Source: Candidatus Mediterraneibacter gallistercoris
GTDB lineage: Bacteria; Bacillota_A; Clostridia; Lachnospirales; Lachnospiraceae
DNA: 26,226 nucleotides
NCBI GenBank assembly: GCA_019119745.1
Contig: DWWI01000237.1
Span: 1 to 26,226, forward strand
Direction of reading: 5' to 3'
Below are positions 2,444 to 12,623 of this stretch, piece after piece. How positions within the stretch are numbered: the stretch's first letter is position 1; every line of letters begins with the position of its first letter. Made by a program: the position numbers and the translations under genes. The notes under the pieces are model-generated. The model was not told where the DNA came from. It worked only from the letters and a program-made list of their open reading frames with translations, and did no database searches.

Positions 2444-4627
2444 TTAATCTGCCTGTACGAAATGCCACTGATATGCCTGATATTCTCCGTGAAGCACCGG
2501 CTTCGGCACGCCTGCTTCGCGCAGGGCTGTACTGTTGTACAGTTTACCTGTCGTTGTCTCGCGGTACATTGTATTTTCTTTCAGGCCTTTCACCTTTATA
2601 TAATCCACCGTCATATTTGCGTGCTTCTTAATACCTACTACCTGAACCAGCGCTTCTCTCTGATCCTCCGATACAAACTCCCACGCTCCCTGATTATCTG
2701 TCTGAGGATTTGTAAGACGGTAGTAGAGTCCCCGCTGAACCAGCGCGGCATATTCTTTATACTCTGCGATCTGACGACGGATCTCTGCTTTTTCTTCCTC
2801 ACTCAATTCATTCAGGTTCAGTTCGTATCCAAATGTGCCGGCGAGAGCTACTGTCCCCCGCGTCTTCATCGGTGTCACCCTCTCTGTCTGATGATTCGGT
2901 GAAGCCGATACATGGGATCCCACACAGGAAGTCGGATAAATAAACGATGTTCCATACTGGATCTCCAGTCTGTCAATCGGATCTGTATTGTCACTGCACC
3001 AGATCTGCGGCGTGTAGTACAGCATGCCGGCGTCAAACCGTCCGCCGCCTCCGCTGCATCCTTCAATCAGAATATTCGGATACCGGTTCACCAGACGCTC
3101 AAGGAAATCATATAGTCCCAGCACATAATCATGCAGTACCCGTCCCTGGCTGTCCGCTGTTGCAGAATACACGTCTGCAATACTCCGGTTCATATCCCAT
3201 TTGATATATTCCACATTCCCCTGATCCAGCACAGAACAGATCTGATTGTAGATATAATCCACCACTTCTTTTCTTGAAAAATCAAGAACAAGCTGATGTC
3301 TGGAACGATTCGGCCGGCGTCCCGGTATTACGAAAGCCCAGTCCGGATGCTCCCGGTAGAGATCACTGTCTTCATTCACCATCTCCGGCTCAATCCAGAT
3401 ACCGAATTTAAGACCCATATCATTGATCTTTCCGATCAGTTCGCCCAGTGTGCACCCCAGCTTTTCTTCGTTAACCTTCCAGTCTCCCAGCCCGCGCAGT
3501 TCACTGTCTCGTTTTCCGAACCAGCCGTCGTCCATTACAAACATCTCGATTCCCAGTTTTGCCGCTTCTGACGCCAGTTTAAGAAGAGACTCTCCCGTGA
3601 AATCAAAATAGGACGCCTCCCAGCTGTTTAGCAGGATCGGTCTTACAATTTCTTTATATTTTCCCCTGCACAGATGCGTGCGCATACAGCGGTGAAGATT
3701 CTGCGAAAGTTTTGCCAGCCCTTCGGAGGAGTAACTCATAATAACCTCAGGAGATTGGAATTCTTCCCCTGCTTTAAGCGGATATGCAAACTGTTCTTCG
3801 GAGAACCCCATAAGCAGCCGTGTCTGGTAATACTGATCCTGTCCTGCCTCACTCTGGAACCCGCCGCTGTAGACAAACGCCATTGCATAACAGCTTCCCG
3901 CGTCTTCCGTCGCCTCATGTTCCGCCATAATAACAGCCGGATTATACTGATGGCTGGATGAGCCACGCAGGCTGCCGATCTTCTGCACTCCATGTCCGAC
4001 AGGCATTCTCTGCATATTTCTCTCCATGGCATGACGCCCGTAGAATGTAATAAAATCATATTGTCCACCCACCATATCCAGACATGCCGGAGCAAGTTTC
4101 TTCACCGAAATACGTCCGTCACTGGCATTTACAATTTTAACACTGCGGGTGATAATATCATATTCCGGAAGCACACCGTAAAGCAGCACCGCCTGTACTC
4201 CGGTCACACGGTCTTTCAGAACCACCTCAAGGGTCTGAGCTTCATCATCATCCGCATACACCGCCGGAAGTCCTTCCAGAGCATATTTCCCGTCGCGTAT
4301 GCTGTGACTCTCATATCGGAAATCACTGCAGTAGGTGCGGTCCGTATTTTTAATAATACATGCCGGAGTGCGGTAGTCCCCTGTCCCCAGAGAAGGAAAT
4401 TCCTGCGGCAGTGAGTCCATAGAATAAGTCTTGTCATTTCCTGCGTCGTACGGATTGCCTGAAAATCCTCTGTCATAATATGTCAGAAGATAATCCATGC
4501 ATCCCTCTGCTGTTTTTCCATAATATAGATGCAGCAGAAATCCGTATTTGTCTACCTGCATCTGATAAGTTGTGTTTCTGGTATGAAGAGTAATTGTCTT
4601 CTGTGCCTCATCATAAATTATGCTCAT
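2444..4627 (-). CDS. aga: Alpha-galactosidase, GH36
   Basis: This enzyme removes terminal alpha-1,6-galactose from melibiose, raffinose or stachyose. At 727 residues it has the usual length of the bacterial GH36 AgaA/RafA group. An N-terminal beta-supersandwich is followed by the barrel. The motif KWDMNR places the nucleophile at D478 and SDNTD (545-549) carries the acid/base. MDDGWFG and the EPEMVNEDSDLY segment are further family marks. No signal peptide is seen, so it acts in the cytoplasm on imported sugars. It starts at ATG 4627 behind a GGAGAG ribosome site. It is separated from the permease gene by 157 bp that hold a strong terminator and a repeat, so it may have its own transcript start. 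Oligosaccharide preference is not decidable by eye. Confidence 0.95.
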   Translation of the reverse strand: MSIIYDEAQKTITLHTRNTTYQMQVDKYGFLLHLYYGKTAEGCMDYLLTYYDRGFSGNPYDAGNDKTYSMDSLPQEFPSLGTGDYRTPACIIKNTDRTYCSDFRYESHSIRDGKYALEGLPAVYADDDEAQTLEVVLKDRVTGVQAVLLYGVLPEYDIITRSVKIVNASDGRISVKKLAPACLDMVGGQYDFITFYGRHAMERNMQRMPVGHGVQKIGSLRGSSSHQYNPAVIMAEHEATEDAGSCYAMAFVYSGGFQSEAGQDQYYQTRLLMGFSEEQFAYPLKAGEEFQSPEVIMSYSSEGLAKLSQNLHRCMRTHLCRGKYKEIVRPILLNSWEASYFDFTGESLLKLASEAAKLGIEMFVMDDGWFGKRDSELRGLGDWKVNEEKLGCTLGELIGKINDMGLKFGIWIEPEMVNEDSDLYREHPDWAFVIPGRRPNRSRHQLVLDFSRKEVVDYIYNQICSVLDQGNVEYIKWDMNRSIADVYSATADSQGRVLHDYVLGLYDFLERLVNRYPNILIEGCSGGGGRFDAGMLYYTPQIWCSDNTDPIDRLEIQYGTSFIYPTSCVGSHVSASPNHQTERVTPMKTRGTVALAGTFGYELNLNELSEEEKAEIRRQIAEYKEYAALVQRGLYYRLTNPQTDNQGAWEFVSEDQREALVQVVGIKKHANMTVDYIKVKGLKENTMYRETTTGKLYNSTALREAGVPKPVLHGEYQAYQWHFVQAD

Positions 4628-8043: not shown

Positions 8044-8895
8044 ATGAGCGATTCTGTATTTACTGTATTCCCAAATGAAAATTTTGTTGATCTCTGCCTG
8101 TACCAGTTTGGGAGAGAACAGTGTCCGCCAGCCTATTCTTTTGGCCCGGCTAAAAGAAATCATTATCTTTTTCATTACGTTTTATCCGGCACCGGAAAAC
8201 TGATCGCCGCTGATTCCAAAGGTCAATCCCATGAATATCAGATTCACACAGGGCAGGGCTTTATGATTTTTCCACGGCAGATCACAACCTATATTGCCGA
8301 TGAAAAACTTCCGTGGGAATATACATGGCTGGAATTTGACGGGATGCGTGTCAGAGAGATCATAGAGACTGCCGGGCTGTCTCCCGACCATCCGGTCTAT
8401 CATGCATCCCACAAAGACCTGCGGGAGAACATGGTAAATGAAATGGTCTATATAGCAGAACACGGGGATGCCTCTTCATTCCACCTGATCGGGCATCTGT
8501 ACCTCTTTGCGGATTTTCTTGCCCGTTCTGCCGCATCCACTCATGTATCGACCAGTGGAAAAGTTCGCGACTTCTATATCAAAGAGGCATTAAACTATAT
8601 CGAGCAGAACTTTCAGAATGATATTACCGTAGAGGGGATTGCGGCATTCTGCGGATTAAACCGCACCTACTTCGGCAGGATCTTCAAAGATACAGTAGGG
8701 AAATCGCCGCAGCAGTTCCTGCTCAATTACCGTATGACAAAAGCTGCCGAACTGTTAAAACTGACCACTCTTTCCATCAGTGATATCGGAAATGCTGTAG
8801 GCTATCCCAATCAGCTGCACTTTTCAAGAGCATTCAAAAATGTGTTCGGAATATCTCCGAGAGAATGGAGAAATAAGAATCAGATTATGAAATAA
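8044..8895 (+). CDS. AraC-family transcriptional regulator of the alpha-galactoside operon
   Basis: This 283-residue protein has an N-terminal cupin-like ligand-binding domain (about 25-160) and two C-terminal helix-turn-helix units (about 180-280). The family signature is clear in DITVEGIAAFCGLNRTYFGR and DIGNAVGYPNQLHFSRAFK with the closing GISPREWR. It resembles MsmR/RafR-type activators that sense an alpha-galactoside or its product. The start at 8044 has a GGGAGG ribosome site 7 bp upstream. It is divergent from the transporter operon, with an inverted repeat between them. Its TAA stop (8893-8895) overlaps the first bases of the large palindromic element that follows. Confidence 0.93.
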   Translation: MSDSVFTVFPNENFVDLCLYQFGREQCPPAYSFGPAKRNHYLFHYVLSGTGKLIAADSKGQSHEYQIHTGQGFMIFPRQITTYIADEKLPWEYTWLEFDGMRVREIIETAGLSPDHPVYHASHKDLRENMVNEMVYIAEHGDASSFHLIGHLYLFADFLARSAASTHVSTSGKVRDFYIKEALNYIEQNFQNDITVEGIAAFCGLNRTYFGRIFKDTVGKSPQQFLLNYRMTKAAELLKLTTLSISDIGNAVGYPNQLHFSRAFKNVFGISPREWRNKNQIMK

Positions 8896-8907
8896 ATTTC
8901 GATTTCT

Positions 8908-9243
8908 CGGACTGAATGCCGATGATATAAGGTCCGAAAACAGATGGAGATGAGGCACGGAAATACTTTTTCTAGATGACCGGTATGTGCTTCAGGCTCC
9001 GCTTCATAATCCGAGAAAAATTAAAGGGTCTGAAATCTGATTAAAGACAAAGCCGCAAAATGGATAACTCGCCTTCGGCTCAAACAATCCATTTTGCGGC
9101 TTAACATCAGCTTTCAGACCCTTAACTTTTTCTAGCAGATTATTCCGAAGTTGCCTTCCTCACATACCGGACATCTCATTTTAAGCATTCCTGTACCTCA
9201 TCTCCATCCATTTTCTGCTTCATTGGATTCGGCAGTCACTCCG
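8908..9243. repeat. Very long imperfect hairpin within element 1
   Basis: The left arm (about 8908-9065) pairs with the right arm (about 9087-9243) along most of its length. Clear paired blocks are GATGGAGATGAGG with CCTCATCTCCATC, ACCGGTATGTG with CACATACCGGA, and AAGGGTCTGAAA with TTTCAGACCCTT. At the tip, AAGCCGCAAAATGGAT (9050-9065) pairs perfectly over 16 bp with 9087-9102 around a 21-nt loop containing GCCTTCGGC. Mismatches and small bulges are scattered along the arms, as in an old palindrome or a folded RNA. Confidence 0.85.
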
Positions 9244-9349
9244 ACAAAACTGAAAGTCGAAGAAACGGGTTGAAATGGGAACGTAGTCGATAAAATTTCA
9301 GCCTTGATTCTCCCGTTTAAATTCTATTTTCGGGATGGGAAAGAAAGCA

Positions 9350-9480
9350 GCCGGGAGGCAGGTATTGTGTACGCACCGTTGGAGCAGCGTCGGTACTTAG
9401 AGCGCGTCTTTTGCGCTCTTATGTACCGTTACGCTGCGACCGAATGAAAATGTGTGCGTTAGCAATACCGGCCTCCCGGC
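9350..9480. repeat. Hairpin module of element 1, shared with element 2
   Basis: Arms 9350-9367 (GCCGGGAGGCAGGTATTG) and 9463-9480 pair at 17 of 18 positions. Two inner stems continue the fold: GCAGCGTCGGTAC (9384-9396) with 9423-9437, and AGAGCGC (9399-9405) with GCGCTCT (9413-9419). The preceding GGAAAGAAAGCA and the following GGATACTTT are also conserved in the second element. Confidence 0.85.
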
Positions 9481-9511
9481 GGATACTTTATCAGTCCGAG
9501 AAATCGAAATT

Positions 9512-10471
9512 TTATCCACGGATCAGCGCTTCAACCTCATCCCTCTCCGGCATGGAGCGGATAGCGCCTTTCTTTGTCGTAACGATTGCCGCGGCCGCGT
9601 TTGCGAATGTGAGTAACTCGCCCAGCTGATCTTCCGTCAGATCTGCGAAGCCATGCTCCACGATATAGTTCAGGGAGCTTCCGCAGAATGTATCGCCTGC
9701 CCCTGTCGTCTCGATTGCTTTAACCGTAAATCCCGGGCGTTCTACGCGCATTCCTTTGTAATATGCACGGCTTCCGTCTTTTCCCATAGTAAGGAGAATC
9801 ATCGGGATATTATATTTTTCCTGCAGATACGCAATACCCTCGTCATAGTCCTCTTTTCCCGAGACAAACTGAATTTCATTGTCGGAGATTTTCAGAATGT
9901 CGCACATTCTGAAACCATATTCCATCTGCTCTTTTGCAAGATCGAGAGAAGACCAGAGCGGCGGGCGCAGATTCGGATCAAAGGAAACAAGACAGCCCGC
10001 GTCTTTCGCTGCCTGAATAGCCTTCTTCGTTGCCGCCCTTACACCTTCATGAGTCATTGAGAGTGTACCGAAGTGGAATATCTTTGTCTGAGCAATAAAT
10101 TCCGGATCCACTTCCTCCTCTGTGAGCATCATATCAGCCCCCGGATTGCGGTAGAAAGAAAATTCGCGGTCTCCGTCCGGGAACGTATGTACAAATGCCA
10201 GTGTCGTATTCACCTTATCATCGATTACAAGATGAGAAGCATCAATTCCCGCATCTGTGATTGTATCTTTCAACAGTGTGCCAAACTGATCCTTCCCCAC
10301 TTTTCCGAGGAATGCCGTCTTCTTTCCCATCTTGTTGAGAAGAGCCAGCACGTTACACGGCGCTCCTCCCGGGCATGCCTCAAACATATTGTTTCCCTGT
10401 TCGCTCTGTCCGTTCATTGTAAAATCGATCAGAAGTTCGCCAAGAGCGATCACATCATATTTTTTCTCCAT
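9512..10471 (-). CDS. scrK: Fructokinase, PfkB/ribokinase family (ScrK-like)
   Basis: It should phosphorylate fructose with ATP to fructose 6-phosphate. The frame opens upstream at 10498, but ATG 10471 is chosen because AGGAGG lies 9 bp before it and the protein then begins MEKKYDVIALGELLIDF, the family N-terminus (319 residues). PfkB landmarks are GGAPCNVL, FLGKVGKDQFG near the N-terminus and the C-terminal TTGAGDTFCG with the catalytic Asp. Fructose as substrate is inferred from the GELLIDF type and from the neighbouring sucrose-splitting GH13 gene. A possible promoter TTACAG-N17-TTATAT lies in the 65-bp gap behind the GTPase gene. Its stop overlaps the end of palindromic element 1. Confidence 0.88.
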   Translation of the reverse strand: MEKKYDVIALGELLIDFTMNGQSEQGNNMFEACPGGAPCNVLALLNKMGKKTAFLGKVGKDQFGTLLKDTITDAGIDASHLVIDDKVNTTLAFVHTFPDGDREFSFYRNPGADMMLTEEEVDPEFIAQTKIFHFGTLSMTHEGVRAATKKAIQAAKDAGCLVSFDPNLRPPLWSSLDLAKEQMEYGFRMCDILKISDNEIQFVSGKEDYDEGIAYLQEKYNIPMILLTMGKDGSRAYYKGMRVERPGFTVKAIETTGAGDTFCGSSLNYIVEHGFADLTEDQLGELLTFANAAAAIVTTKKGAIRSMPERDEVEALIRG

Positions 10472-10536
10472 TTCCGAGTACCTCCTGCTGATATTCATAA
10501 ATTTATATAATACCGGGACAGCCGCCCCTGTAACTC

Positions 10537-11484
10537 TTAATTGAAGTATACCAGTTCCTCTATAGGATCTGCAAGCTCTATATTCTCCGCTTCCAGTACC
10601 GGACCTTCACCTCTGTAGACTGACAGATTTGCGAACCGGATCTTCGCCCTGATTTTCACCCATTGTCCGGGCTTAAGCTTCGGCGCGTATGCGCTCCTGC
10701 ACACATATCCGAGAAATGACGTATCATCCGCGCAGCATGTCATCGCCATGCGTCCTGCCATAAAGACTTTTGCCGGGAATGTTCTGGGCTTAAGCACTTT
10801 TGCAGTGTATTCCACCACTTTTCCCCTGTAGCGGTCCGGATTTTCCATCATATCCACATACCATATACCATAATCCTCTTTTGCGATCTCAATGACCGGG
10901 GCTTTCAGATCATAAGGCACCTCATCCTCAAAAATATTTTCAATCTCCCCCTGCTCGTCTTCAAAGATCACTTCAGCCTGCGGGCTCACTACTTTTACAC
11001 TGCGGCGGTATCCCGCCAGCGGCTTGATGTCCTCGCACCGGTTAAAAAGCACCATATCAGCGCCCCTGACCATCTCCACAAACAGAGGTTTCAGATTGGT
11101 CAGATACATCTGAAACGTACTGGCGTCTACGGTAGTTATTTTCTGCTCGATTCCCCATCCGGCAGGAAGTTTCAGATTCTCAAAATCACTTACTTTCCAC
11201 ATGCCGTTATATTCCACTACAACACGCTCGGGCTCGTGCTTTTTATTCATCTCGTCAAGCCACTCTGCCGTCAGGTCTTCCTGATTTTCGACTTTTTCTA
11301 TGACGACGCCATATTTCAGCATCTCCATCGGATCATACTCTTCCTCTCCCTCTTCACAGAGGATCAGCAGAGTCTTGCCGTCGATCTGAAAATAATCCTG
11401 TTTCAGCGTAAATGTCAGGAACTGTGTCTTGCCGCTGTCCAGGAAACCTGTCATAAGATAAACCATAATATCAGGTTCAGTCAT
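10537..11484 (-). CDS. CobW-like P-loop GTPase fused to a YcgQ/DUF1980-like C-terminal domain
   Basis: The protein has 315 residues. Residues about 5-190 resemble the COG0523/CobW GTPase fold, with the Walker A loop GFLDSGKT (13-20) and an NKxD-like NRCED. The metal-binding CxCC motif of that family is absent; the matching area reads LCEEGEEEYD. From about residue 205 the sequence switches to a pattern typical of YcgQ/TIGR03943 proteins: NPDRYRGKVVEYTAKV, then GRMAMTCCADD, then GQWVKIRAKI, ending ADPIEELVYF. YcgQ-type domains usually accompany a membrane permease, which is not seen here. It follows the His-rich GTPase by 44 bp, so both probably share a transcript and a metal-related role. The domain assignment is by recognition only. 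Confidence 0.75.
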   Translation of the reverse strand: MTEPDIMVYLMTGFLDSGKTQFLTFTLKQDYFQIDGKTLLILCEEGEEEYDPMEMLKYGVVIEKVENQEDLTAEWLDEMNKKHEPERVVVEYNGMWKVSDFENLKLPAGWGIEQKITTVDASTFQMYLTNLKPLFVEMVRGADMVLFNRCEDIKPLAGYRRSVKVVSPQAEVIFEDEQGEIENIFEDEVPYDLKAPVIEIAKEDYGIWYVDMMENPDRYRGKVVEYTAKVLKPRTFPAKVFMAGRMAMTCCADDTSFLGYVCRSAYAPKLKPGQWVKIRAKIRFANLSVYRGEGPVLEAENIELADPIEELVYFN

Positions 11485-11528
11485 ATCCGTTCTCTCCCAT
11501 CTTCAATTACTTTTCAACAGGGCCCTGC

Positions 11529-12623
11529 TTACGCCAGACCGAAAAGCTCTGCCAGCTTATCTTCATTAAGTTCTGCTCCGATCACGCAGATCCGCCCTGT
11601 ATACTCCGGCGCCCCGGCACGGACTTCATGCTCTTCAGGAACCATGTCAAAGTAAATCCATTCACCGTCAGCTCCGGCCACCATTCCCTTGGCGCGAAGT
11701 ACATTTCCGTAACTGCTGTCTGATTCCAGCGTTTTCAGGATATCGCCGATCTGCTCTTTTGTGTAGGTATGGATCGTCTCACGCCCCCAGCTCGTAAACA
11801 CATCGTCCGCATGGTGATGGCCTGCATGGTCATGATGATGGTGCTCATGATCATGGTCGTGATGGTGGTCATGCTCTTCGTGTTCGTGATGATGTCCGTG
11901 TTCGTCGTGATCATGATCGTGGTGGTCATGCTCATGATCGTGATCATGTCCGCAGCACTCGCCCTCTTCATGGTGATGTCCGCATTCCGGACAGATAATC
12001 TCATCGAGCAGTTCCTCCTCAAGGGACTTGCCTGACTCCATTGTCTCGAGGATCTTTTTGCCCGGAAGCTGTGCGATCGGAGTCGTAATAAACGGCGCCT
12101 TATCATTGAGCTCTCTGAGCAGGGCAACACTCTCCTCGATCTTCTCCGGTTTCGCCTTATCTGTACGGCTTAGGATGACAGCTCCCGCATACTCGATCTG
12201 ATTGCTGAAGAACTCGCCAAAATTTTTTCTGTAAATCCGGCATTTTGTCACATCAACTACTGTTGTAAAGCTGTTGAGCTCCGCGTCAATTTCTGCCTGT
12301 ACATCCTGCACTGCCTTGATCACATCAGAAAGCTTGCCCACACCTGACGGCTCGATCAGGATTCGATCCGGATGATAAGTGTCTACCACTTCACGAAGTG
12401 ATTTTCCGAAATCTCCTACAAGTGAACAGCAGATACATCCCGAATTCATCTCACGGATCTCAATCCCGGATTCTTTTAAAAAACCTCCGTCGATTCCAAT
12501 CTCACCGAATTCATTTTCGATCAGCACAACCTGCTCTCCGGCAAACGCCTCTGAGAGCAGCTTTTTTATCAGTGTCGTTTTTCCGGCTCCAAGGAAACCG
12601 GAAATAATGTCTATCTTTGTCAT
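11529..12623 (-). CDS. COG0523/CobW-family metallochaperone GTPase with His-rich insert
   Basis: This 364-residue protein probably hands zinc or another metal to client enzymes using GTP. It shows the full family set: Walker A GFLGAGKTT (9-17), the metal motif GCICC (62-66), EPSGVGK (91-97), and SRTDK in the place of NKxD. Between the GTPase domain and the CobW C-terminal domain (about 285-364) lies an insert with CPEC (211-214), C223-C224 and about 30 histidines between residues 216 and 271, a likely metal store or sensor. The start at 12623 has AGGAGG 7 bp upstream and lies 15 bp behind exonuclease III. No Zur-type operator was recognised nearby. Confidence 0.92.
   Translation of the reverse strand: MTKIDIISGFLGAGKTTLIKKLLSEAFAGEQVVLIENEFGEIGIDGGFLKESGIEIREMNSGCICCSLVGDFGKSLREVVDTYHPDRILIEPSGVGKLSDVIKAVQDVQAEIDAELNSFTTVVDVTKCRIYRKNFGEFFSNQIEYAGAVILSRTDKAKPEKIEESVALLRELNDKAPFITTPIAQLPGKKILETMESGKSLEEELLDEIICPECGHHHEEGECCGHDHDHEHDHHDHDHDEHGHHHEHEEHDHHHDHDHEHHHHDHAGHHHADDVFTSWGRETIHTYTKEQIGDILKTLESDSSYGNVLRAKGMVAGADGEWIYFDMVPEEHEVRAGAPEYTGRICVIGAELNEDKLAELFGLA

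Follow-up and report, generated by a model that had tools for sequence, protein, structure and literature searches.

The stretch of DNA analyzed here (the window) comprises 26,226 nucleotides (nt) of Candidatus Mediterraneibacter gallistercoris, a member of the Lachnospiraceae (GenBank assembly GCA_019119745.1, contig DWWI01000237.1). Between the convergent genes of an AraC-type regulator and of a PfkB-type kinase, it carries a 619-bp palindromic element to which an earlier note, made from the sequence alone, had drawn attention. On balance we favor, with moderate confidence, the reading that this element is a composite copy of a dispersed, non-coding giant-hairpin repeat of the Lachnospiraceae, similar to miniature inverted-repeat transposable elements (MITEs), and that it probably serves as a device at gene 3' ends. 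The defining part of the family is a strand-specific hairpin core of about 166 nt located at the apex of the giant hairpin.

The element and its strand-specific core

The element is the entire AraC-PfkB intergenic gap, since its terminal repeats overlap both stop codons (8893-8895 for AraC and 9512-9514 for PfkB). The earlier note had claimed perfect 22-bp terminal inverted repeats at 8894-8915 and 9491-9512, and the match is indeed exact. It is the longest exact self-complementary match within the element, as compared to a maximum of 12 in 30 mononucleotide shuffles. In agreement with the claim that nothing is coded there, no open reading frame (ORF) of at least 80 aa is found inside 8894-9512 in a list made with this 80-aa cut-off. 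Folded as RNA, the same segment reaches -283 kcal/mol vs. -165.5 (sd 6.9) in 20 dinucleotide shuffles (z -17.0). In the minimum free energy (MFE) structure, the 22-bp terminal stem encloses a 318-nt hairpin (module A), three small hairpins and a 146-nt hairpin (module D; Table 1). The large hairpin noticed earlier is therefore present, at 318 nt rather than about 335, but it is accompanied by three small hairpins and one of 146 nt, not by two more.

Relatives were collected by a scan with the PfkB-type neighbor (138, of which 80 loci were kept), and 26 genomes were chosen from those loci. The best relatives are Mediterraneibacter and related Lachnospiraceae, many of them from chicken gut, with identities up to 98%. 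Across 64 distinct copies of module A, at least two Watson-Crick types (each at 10% or more) are seen in 29 of the 52 pairs tested; the first self-alignment counts for this module include conserved mismatches, and strand stability and G.U/A.C counts were relied on instead. The window-minus strand of module A is the more stable one in 64/64 copies (mean -154.6 vs. -129.7 kcal/mol). For module D, 37 copies gave at least two Watson-Crick types in 12 of 43 pairs, at the same 10% threshold, and no strand preference (20/37).

The apical loop of module A reads TGTYTGA..GAGTT on the core strand. The pattern TGTYTGAGN(3-12)CGAGTT occurs in 22 of the 26 genomes, 1-30 times per genome, vs. 0-2 times for the reversed control. 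By eye, in 18 folded loci, the motif caps a giant hairpin whose internal loops are the same each time, the exceptions being L215, apparently inside a gene, and in part L238. Near-identical copies, one redundant core (L096) and 10 false loop matches out of 147 were dropped. The resulting alignment of 41 cores has 52 pairs, with double changes in 50 of them; 90.7% of its cells are paired, vs. 63.7% after shuffling, and its covariation score is 0.749, vs. 0.248 when shuffled and 0.118-0.188 when slid. The core strand is the more stable one in 40/41 cores. G.U pairs outnumber A.C (122 vs. 39); this count is biased, since RNAalifold structures tend to place G.U on the folded strand, a problem that touches the free-energy comparison less. 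Covariation and strand asymmetry together indicate that selection has acted on one particular strand in its folded, single-stranded form, be it RNA or DNA. The proposal of a large structured RNA put forward in the earlier note holds as regards a strand-specific conserved structure; the molecule itself may be RNA or else single-stranded DNA.

At E <= 1e-4, the covariance model R1 (166 positions, 52 pairs) matches 42 of the 397 genomes searched within the family, including G007, which is training material. Among 398 genomes sampled from the phylum, it matches 7, two of which (G007 and G285) the family search had covered as well. Copy counts obtained with R1 are lower bounds, at most seven candidates being scored per genome. 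In another family genome, a core-bearing, near-perfect hairpin with arms of roughly at least 200 bp (L272:1307-1849) folds to -437.9 kcal/mol for 554 nt. In L269, short hairpins with GCATGGGAA-type arms are repeated as an array (roughly at 1750-2280) that directly adjoins a core-bearing hairpin.

Dispersal, modules and transposition

The 619-bp query has matches in 16 of the 26 related genomes. The richest ones contain 46, 39, 34, 30, and 27 matching pieces, the last being Mediterraneibacter catenae SW178 (G007); these counts include some reverse-strand palindrome shadows and are not numbers of whole copies. Whole or near-whole matches (1-619 or 8-619) occur at five places, three in G007, one in G006 and one in G004. 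Most of the matches listed cover part of about 1-400 (module A) or part of about 380-619 (module D). A lone decaying palindrome, the outcome that the earlier note had associated with a single copy and no structure conservation, is ruled out for the family by the many copies in relatives and by the strong covariation.

Across copies, modules A and D are found separately and in either orientation, and element size ranges from 289 bp to about 920 bp. The polarity of the composites is constant: in 23/23 distinct D-core pairs, the core occupies one and the same flank of D and runs with opposite polarity. At the same AraC/PfkB junction, L001 and L004 carry other module combinations between similar ends, with 97-98% aa identity for PfkB and AraC. 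The gap measures only 19-195 nt in 15 of the 31 loci sharing the AraC-type neighbor, and an ordinary terminator-like hairpin is visible by eye at this junction in six relatives (L012, L015, L025, L034, L035, and L040). A search of G007 with the terminal-repeat pattern gave 4 matches (control, 1), because the ends drift between species. At the same junction in Ruminococcus turbiniformis (L038:6970-7490), there are apparently two module D-like hairpins, by eye.

Direct traces of movement come from two genomes, G385 and G071, whose loci are outside the R1 training set. There, hairpins 287-291 bp long carry the core; their ends read GTTAC, GTAAC or close variants and are flanked by 8-bp duplications. 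The duplication is exact at 19 of 22 paired copies, one being offset by a base, and missing at L287, L333, and L344; L281 gave no pair and was not counted. Sixteen of the 22 are full length (287-290 bp), all with a full core, and 14 of these have the 8-bp duplication. Among the six shorter copies (73-238 bp), five have a duplication; the core is shortened in L337 and gave no match in the other five. Three further full-length copies with duplications came from a search that required the duplication. Because of these target duplications, the core-bearing copies of G385 and G071 have clearly transposed.

Candidates for the mobilizing partner were also considered. No partner was found among the matches to the insertion sequence (IS) family IS66 or among the IS256 matches of G071, none carrying the element ends. 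A 2.5-kb pair of end-like matches in L325 was rejected as an autonomous element: by eye, it encloses UbiD/UbiX-like genes and no transposase. In G071, the three elements L352, L353, and L354 are 1,899 bp long and enclose a weak IS66-family match between GGTAGTGTCAAA-type ends flanked by 8-bp duplications; their ends are unrelated to the hairpin family. A phage or plasmid origin was likewise discarded, the 619-bp element having no match in either collection and the exact terminal repeat being absent from viral contigs. The G385 element has no plasmid match and matches one "Bacteriophage sp." record, MT837089.1, over 49% of its length. This unannotated record (L387) has at 3453-3599 a core-like hairpin among ORFs that look chromosomal by eye, and may be a bacterial contig.

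Gene ends and the terminator-like apex

For the analysis of position, 80 places were fetched from ten genomes; 66 have called genes on both sides and 14 lie at contig edges. The 66 sites are distributed as 45 convergent, 20 tandem, and 1 divergent gaps, vs. 29, 252, and 28 among 309 background gaps in a 400-kb sample of G007, the same kind of home-made gene caller being used for both sets (Fisher p = 1e-22 for convergent and 0.04 for divergent gaps). The outer end could be placed in 57 cases where the match ran to the final or penultimate base of the element. Fifty-one of these ends face the 3' end of a gene, and 49 of the 51 fall within -3 to +7 nt of the stop codon, with the remaining two at +208 and +918; the six ends that do not face a 3' end are 18-108 nt from a gene. 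Some of the abutting stops may come from the terminal repeat, in which a TAA is present. Those of the window pair look native: the element-free L015 aligns over PfkB 1-328 and AraC 1-283.

A plain sense role in the 3' untranslated region (3'-UTR) is ruled out, the orientation of the core to the neighboring gene being mixed. Among readable tandem copies, the core of G385 is sense in 7 cases and antisense in 1. G071 looked opposite, with two clear antisense copies (L282 and L283) and a third, L281, having one flank only, and no conclusion was drawn. The 14 contig-edge sites are L148, L149, L151, L153, L160, L171, L183, L190, L196, L199, L202, L203, L204, and L209. In eight of them, the contig ends at most 2 nt from the match; the hairpins seem to break assemblies.

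The apex of the core offers a possible function at these gene ends. In the 41 cores, the 9 nt following the apical stem contain on average 4.83 T on the core strand vs. 1.34 on the other strand, and at least five T in 29/41 vs. 0/41. This layout resembles an intrinsic terminator on one strand, with a perfect 16-bp apical stem and then a T-rich tract. It differs from such terminators in that the stem tops a giant hairpin that is conserved in its other arm too, in its 21-nt loop, and in the outcome of the consensus scan reported below. A terminator has no need for the far arm, which is also conserved; a read-through RNA or a single-stranded DNA stage would therefore have to matter as well.

From these features, the following model may be proposed. 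The family would have spread by a transposase acting in trans, and the copies of Mediterraneibacter would have been fixed as 3'-end devices. In the window, the minus-strand core would end transcripts entering from the PfkB side, at the apical stem and U-tract; module D may do the same for transcripts from the AraC side, much less clearly. Recombination among dispersed copies would swap modules inside conserved ends. The features of the window element and its flanking genes are collected in Table 1. Elsewhere in the window, highly repetitive ORFs (FASASA / LRFRF) at 1796-2340 on the plus strand are perhaps the shadow of an opposite-strand low-complexity protein or a repeat. At 10537-12623 on the minus strand, two neighboring ORFs look by eye like CobW-type GTPases, the longer one with a very histidine-rich stretch.

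Table 1. Features of the giant-hairpin element and its flanking genes (window positions)
Feature	Position	Strand	Basis or remark
AraC-type regulator, convergent flank	8044..8895	+	Named from sequence reading, no family search
Left terminal inverted repeat, AAATTTCGATTTCTCGGACTGA	8894..8915	+	Starts with the two final bases of the AraC stop codon
Module A, giant hairpin, 318 nt, 113 pairs	8917..9234	-	MFE fold, strand stability
Conserved structured core, model R1, 166 positions, 156.4 bits	8990..9157	-	Covariance model
T-rich tract TGTCTTTAA, 5 T in 9 nt, directly 3' of the apical stem	9041..9049	-	Terminator-like, putative function
One arm of the perfect 16-bp apical stem	9050..9065		Self-complementarity
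Apical loop TGTTTGAGCCGAAGGCGAGTT, 21 nt, family motif with covarying inner stem	9066..9086	-
Second arm of the 16-bp apical stem	9087..9102		Self-complementarity
Linker with small hairpins 9235-9266, 9267-9304, 9311-9340	9235..9343		MFE fold
Module D, second large hairpin, 146 nt, 55 pairs	9344..9489	+	MFE fold; occurs without module A in other copies
Right terminal inverted repeat	9491..9512	-	Last base, 9512, within the PfkB stop codon
PfkB/fructokinase-type kinase, convergent flank	9512..10498	-	Named from sequence reading, no family search

Competing readings and known systems

A bolder version of the favored reading is possible, and we advance it tentatively. The core may represent an undescribed, widespread class of large structured RNA borne on mobile DNA, in other words a transposable terminator. 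It would jump, become fixed tail-to-tail between convergent genes, replace the ordinary terminator down to the stop codons, and act both ways via two modules of fixed polarity.

Several observations weigh against a mobile 3'-end device. As regards mobility, the target duplication is absent at the window copy and at 13 other full Mediterraneibacter elements (0/14), and from all 85 distinct cores (some of them belonging to the 14) found in Mediterraneibacter and its near relatives; among 55 distinct cores from other genomes, 5 have it, all in G385 or G071. Movement of the window lineage by the same route is consequently something that we infer. The earlier idea of a non-autonomous mobile element is well supported for the family (multiple copies, terminal repeats, 8-bp duplications in two genomes), but duplications lend it no support at the window copy. 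The IS66 and IS256 matches lack such ends, and G385 has no IS256 match, other IS families not having been searched; 27 stretches around other end matches contain short elements only and no autonomous partner. As regards position, in tandem sites the gene may be faced by either end of the element, a freedom for which a one-way terminator would have no use. The 15 copies of G385 lie in 11 tandem, 4 divergent, and 0 convergent gaps, so that the family as a whole does not share the 3'-end bias. At the AraC/PfkB junction, the gaps of L028, L041, and L013 measure 19-39 nt with no clear hairpin by eye; a terminator is therefore not always retained there. As regards termination, a consensus terminator scan with a loop limit of 8 nt called none in the element, and the tail of module D is weakly T-rich (2.9 vs. 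1.1 T in 9 nt, 24 of 37 copies being readable). Finally, the window core is itself one of the 41 training sequences of R1.

The alternative that survives best, though unlikely, is a purely selfish MITE. Hairpin and core would serve the movement of the element itself, for example through recognition of single-stranded DNA or RNA by the mobilizing enzyme, and the position at gene ends would reflect tolerated insertions. The 8-bp duplications, the near-constant length of 289 bp in G385 and G071 and the lack of convergent bias in G385 (0/15) fit this idea, and the excess of G.T wobbles would also be expected from folded single-stranded DNA. However, the abutment of 49/51 ends to stop codons looks too exact for mere tolerance, even if the TAA of the repeat may supply some of these stops, and the U-tract is positioned as in a terminator. 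Moreover, enzymes leaving fixed 8-bp duplications are not known to require a 166-nt folded core.

Quite improbable is a functional class of structured non-coding RNA that would not be mobile in Mediterraneibacter, would be duplicated by recombination and would be retained at gene 3' ends. Such a class would lead one to expect much of what is seen: covariation together with conserved internal loops, strand asymmetry, fixed module polarity and the failure to find target duplications in Mediterraneibacter. Yet the same core was clearly transposed in two genomes, its mixed orientation to the neighboring gene does not correspond to a simple sense 3'-UTR, and the promoter signal in the element is at chance level (1 found vs. 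1.2 expected).

We regard it as very improbable that template switching or inter-arm repair, rather than structural selection, maintains the perfection of the palindromes. The outer arms of G385 do agree with such correction, with a mean of 71% identity between copies and of 94% self-pairing over 20 aligned rows (one of which, L327, is a false pairing at 33%), as does the absence of strand preference in module D taken alone. But correction between arms is strand-blind, whereas one strand has more G.U than A.C, and conservation extends to loops whose bases are unpaired. Lastly, a DNA cruciform or chromosome-structure site, of the kind of bacterial interspersed mosaic elements (BIMEs), is scarcely credible, the structure being strand-specific, in spite of a gene 3'-end position like that reported for repetitive extragenic palindromic (REP) repeats (PMC3733652). 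For the chromosome-structure site suggested in the earlier note, the sequence analysis yielded nothing.

The systems that the family seems most like in its way of working are MITEs and REP/BIME repeats. The bacterial MITEs RUP, ERIC/RU-1, YPAL/RU-2, and NEMIS are described as multi-copy repeats, non-coding or nearly so and about 100-200 bp long; most have terminal inverted repeats as well as target duplications, their transcripts are predicted to fold, and they often lie beside genes (PMC2229807). The hairpin family shares with them the absence of an ORF of at least 80 aa (in the window element), terminal inverted repeats (22 bp in the window, GTTAC.. ends in G385 and G071), and dispersal in multiple copies (16/26 relatives). 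Target duplications accompany 19/22 paired copies of G385 and G071 vs. 0/14 full elements of Mediterraneibacter. It differs by its size of 289 bp to about 920 bp, its composites of large hairpins, a 166-nt covarying core common to several genera, the stop-codon abutment in Mediterraneibacter, and a partner IS not found among the IS66/IS256 matches and the 27 end-match stretches. The family may be described as MITE-like, with incomplete membership because the window copy lacks target duplications and no partner IS was found.

REP/BIME repeats are palindromic units located between convergent or unidirectional genes, whose ends often supply the stop codon (PMC3733652). The hairpin family likewise has palindromic units, convergent or unidirectional gaps and termini able to supply a stop codon. 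In contrast, its units measure 146-318 nt vs. 20-40 bp, the polarity of its modules is fixed, and its ends are AAATTTCG, not the GTAG/CGTC tag. The long covarying core and the contact with both stop codons set it apart from these repeats as well.

With the large structured bacterial RNAs of Rfam, the family has in common a large size and conserved loops and helices; it differs by its high copy number per genome and by the lack of a threshold match. Indeed, no Rfam 15 family reaches its gathering score within the window, to which this search was applied, and a known Rfam RNA is ruled out there at that threshold. Below it, four chance-type matches were seen, the best being a microRNA family at 9008-9141 (31.3 bits, gathering score 140; E 5e-4). 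Full-text literature searches, from which most subscription journals were absent, brought up no paper describing this hairpin family in its title or the start of its abstract.

The R1 covariance model is a direct means of annotating the family, of which single genomes hold dozens of matches, at stop codons, and at whose hairpins contigs seem to break. If confirmed, a MITE-like 3'-end device would tie mobile repeats and structured RNA to the way gene 3' ends are built in a major family of gut bacteria. If the apex does terminate transcription, a transposable element would be supplying terminators genome-wide.

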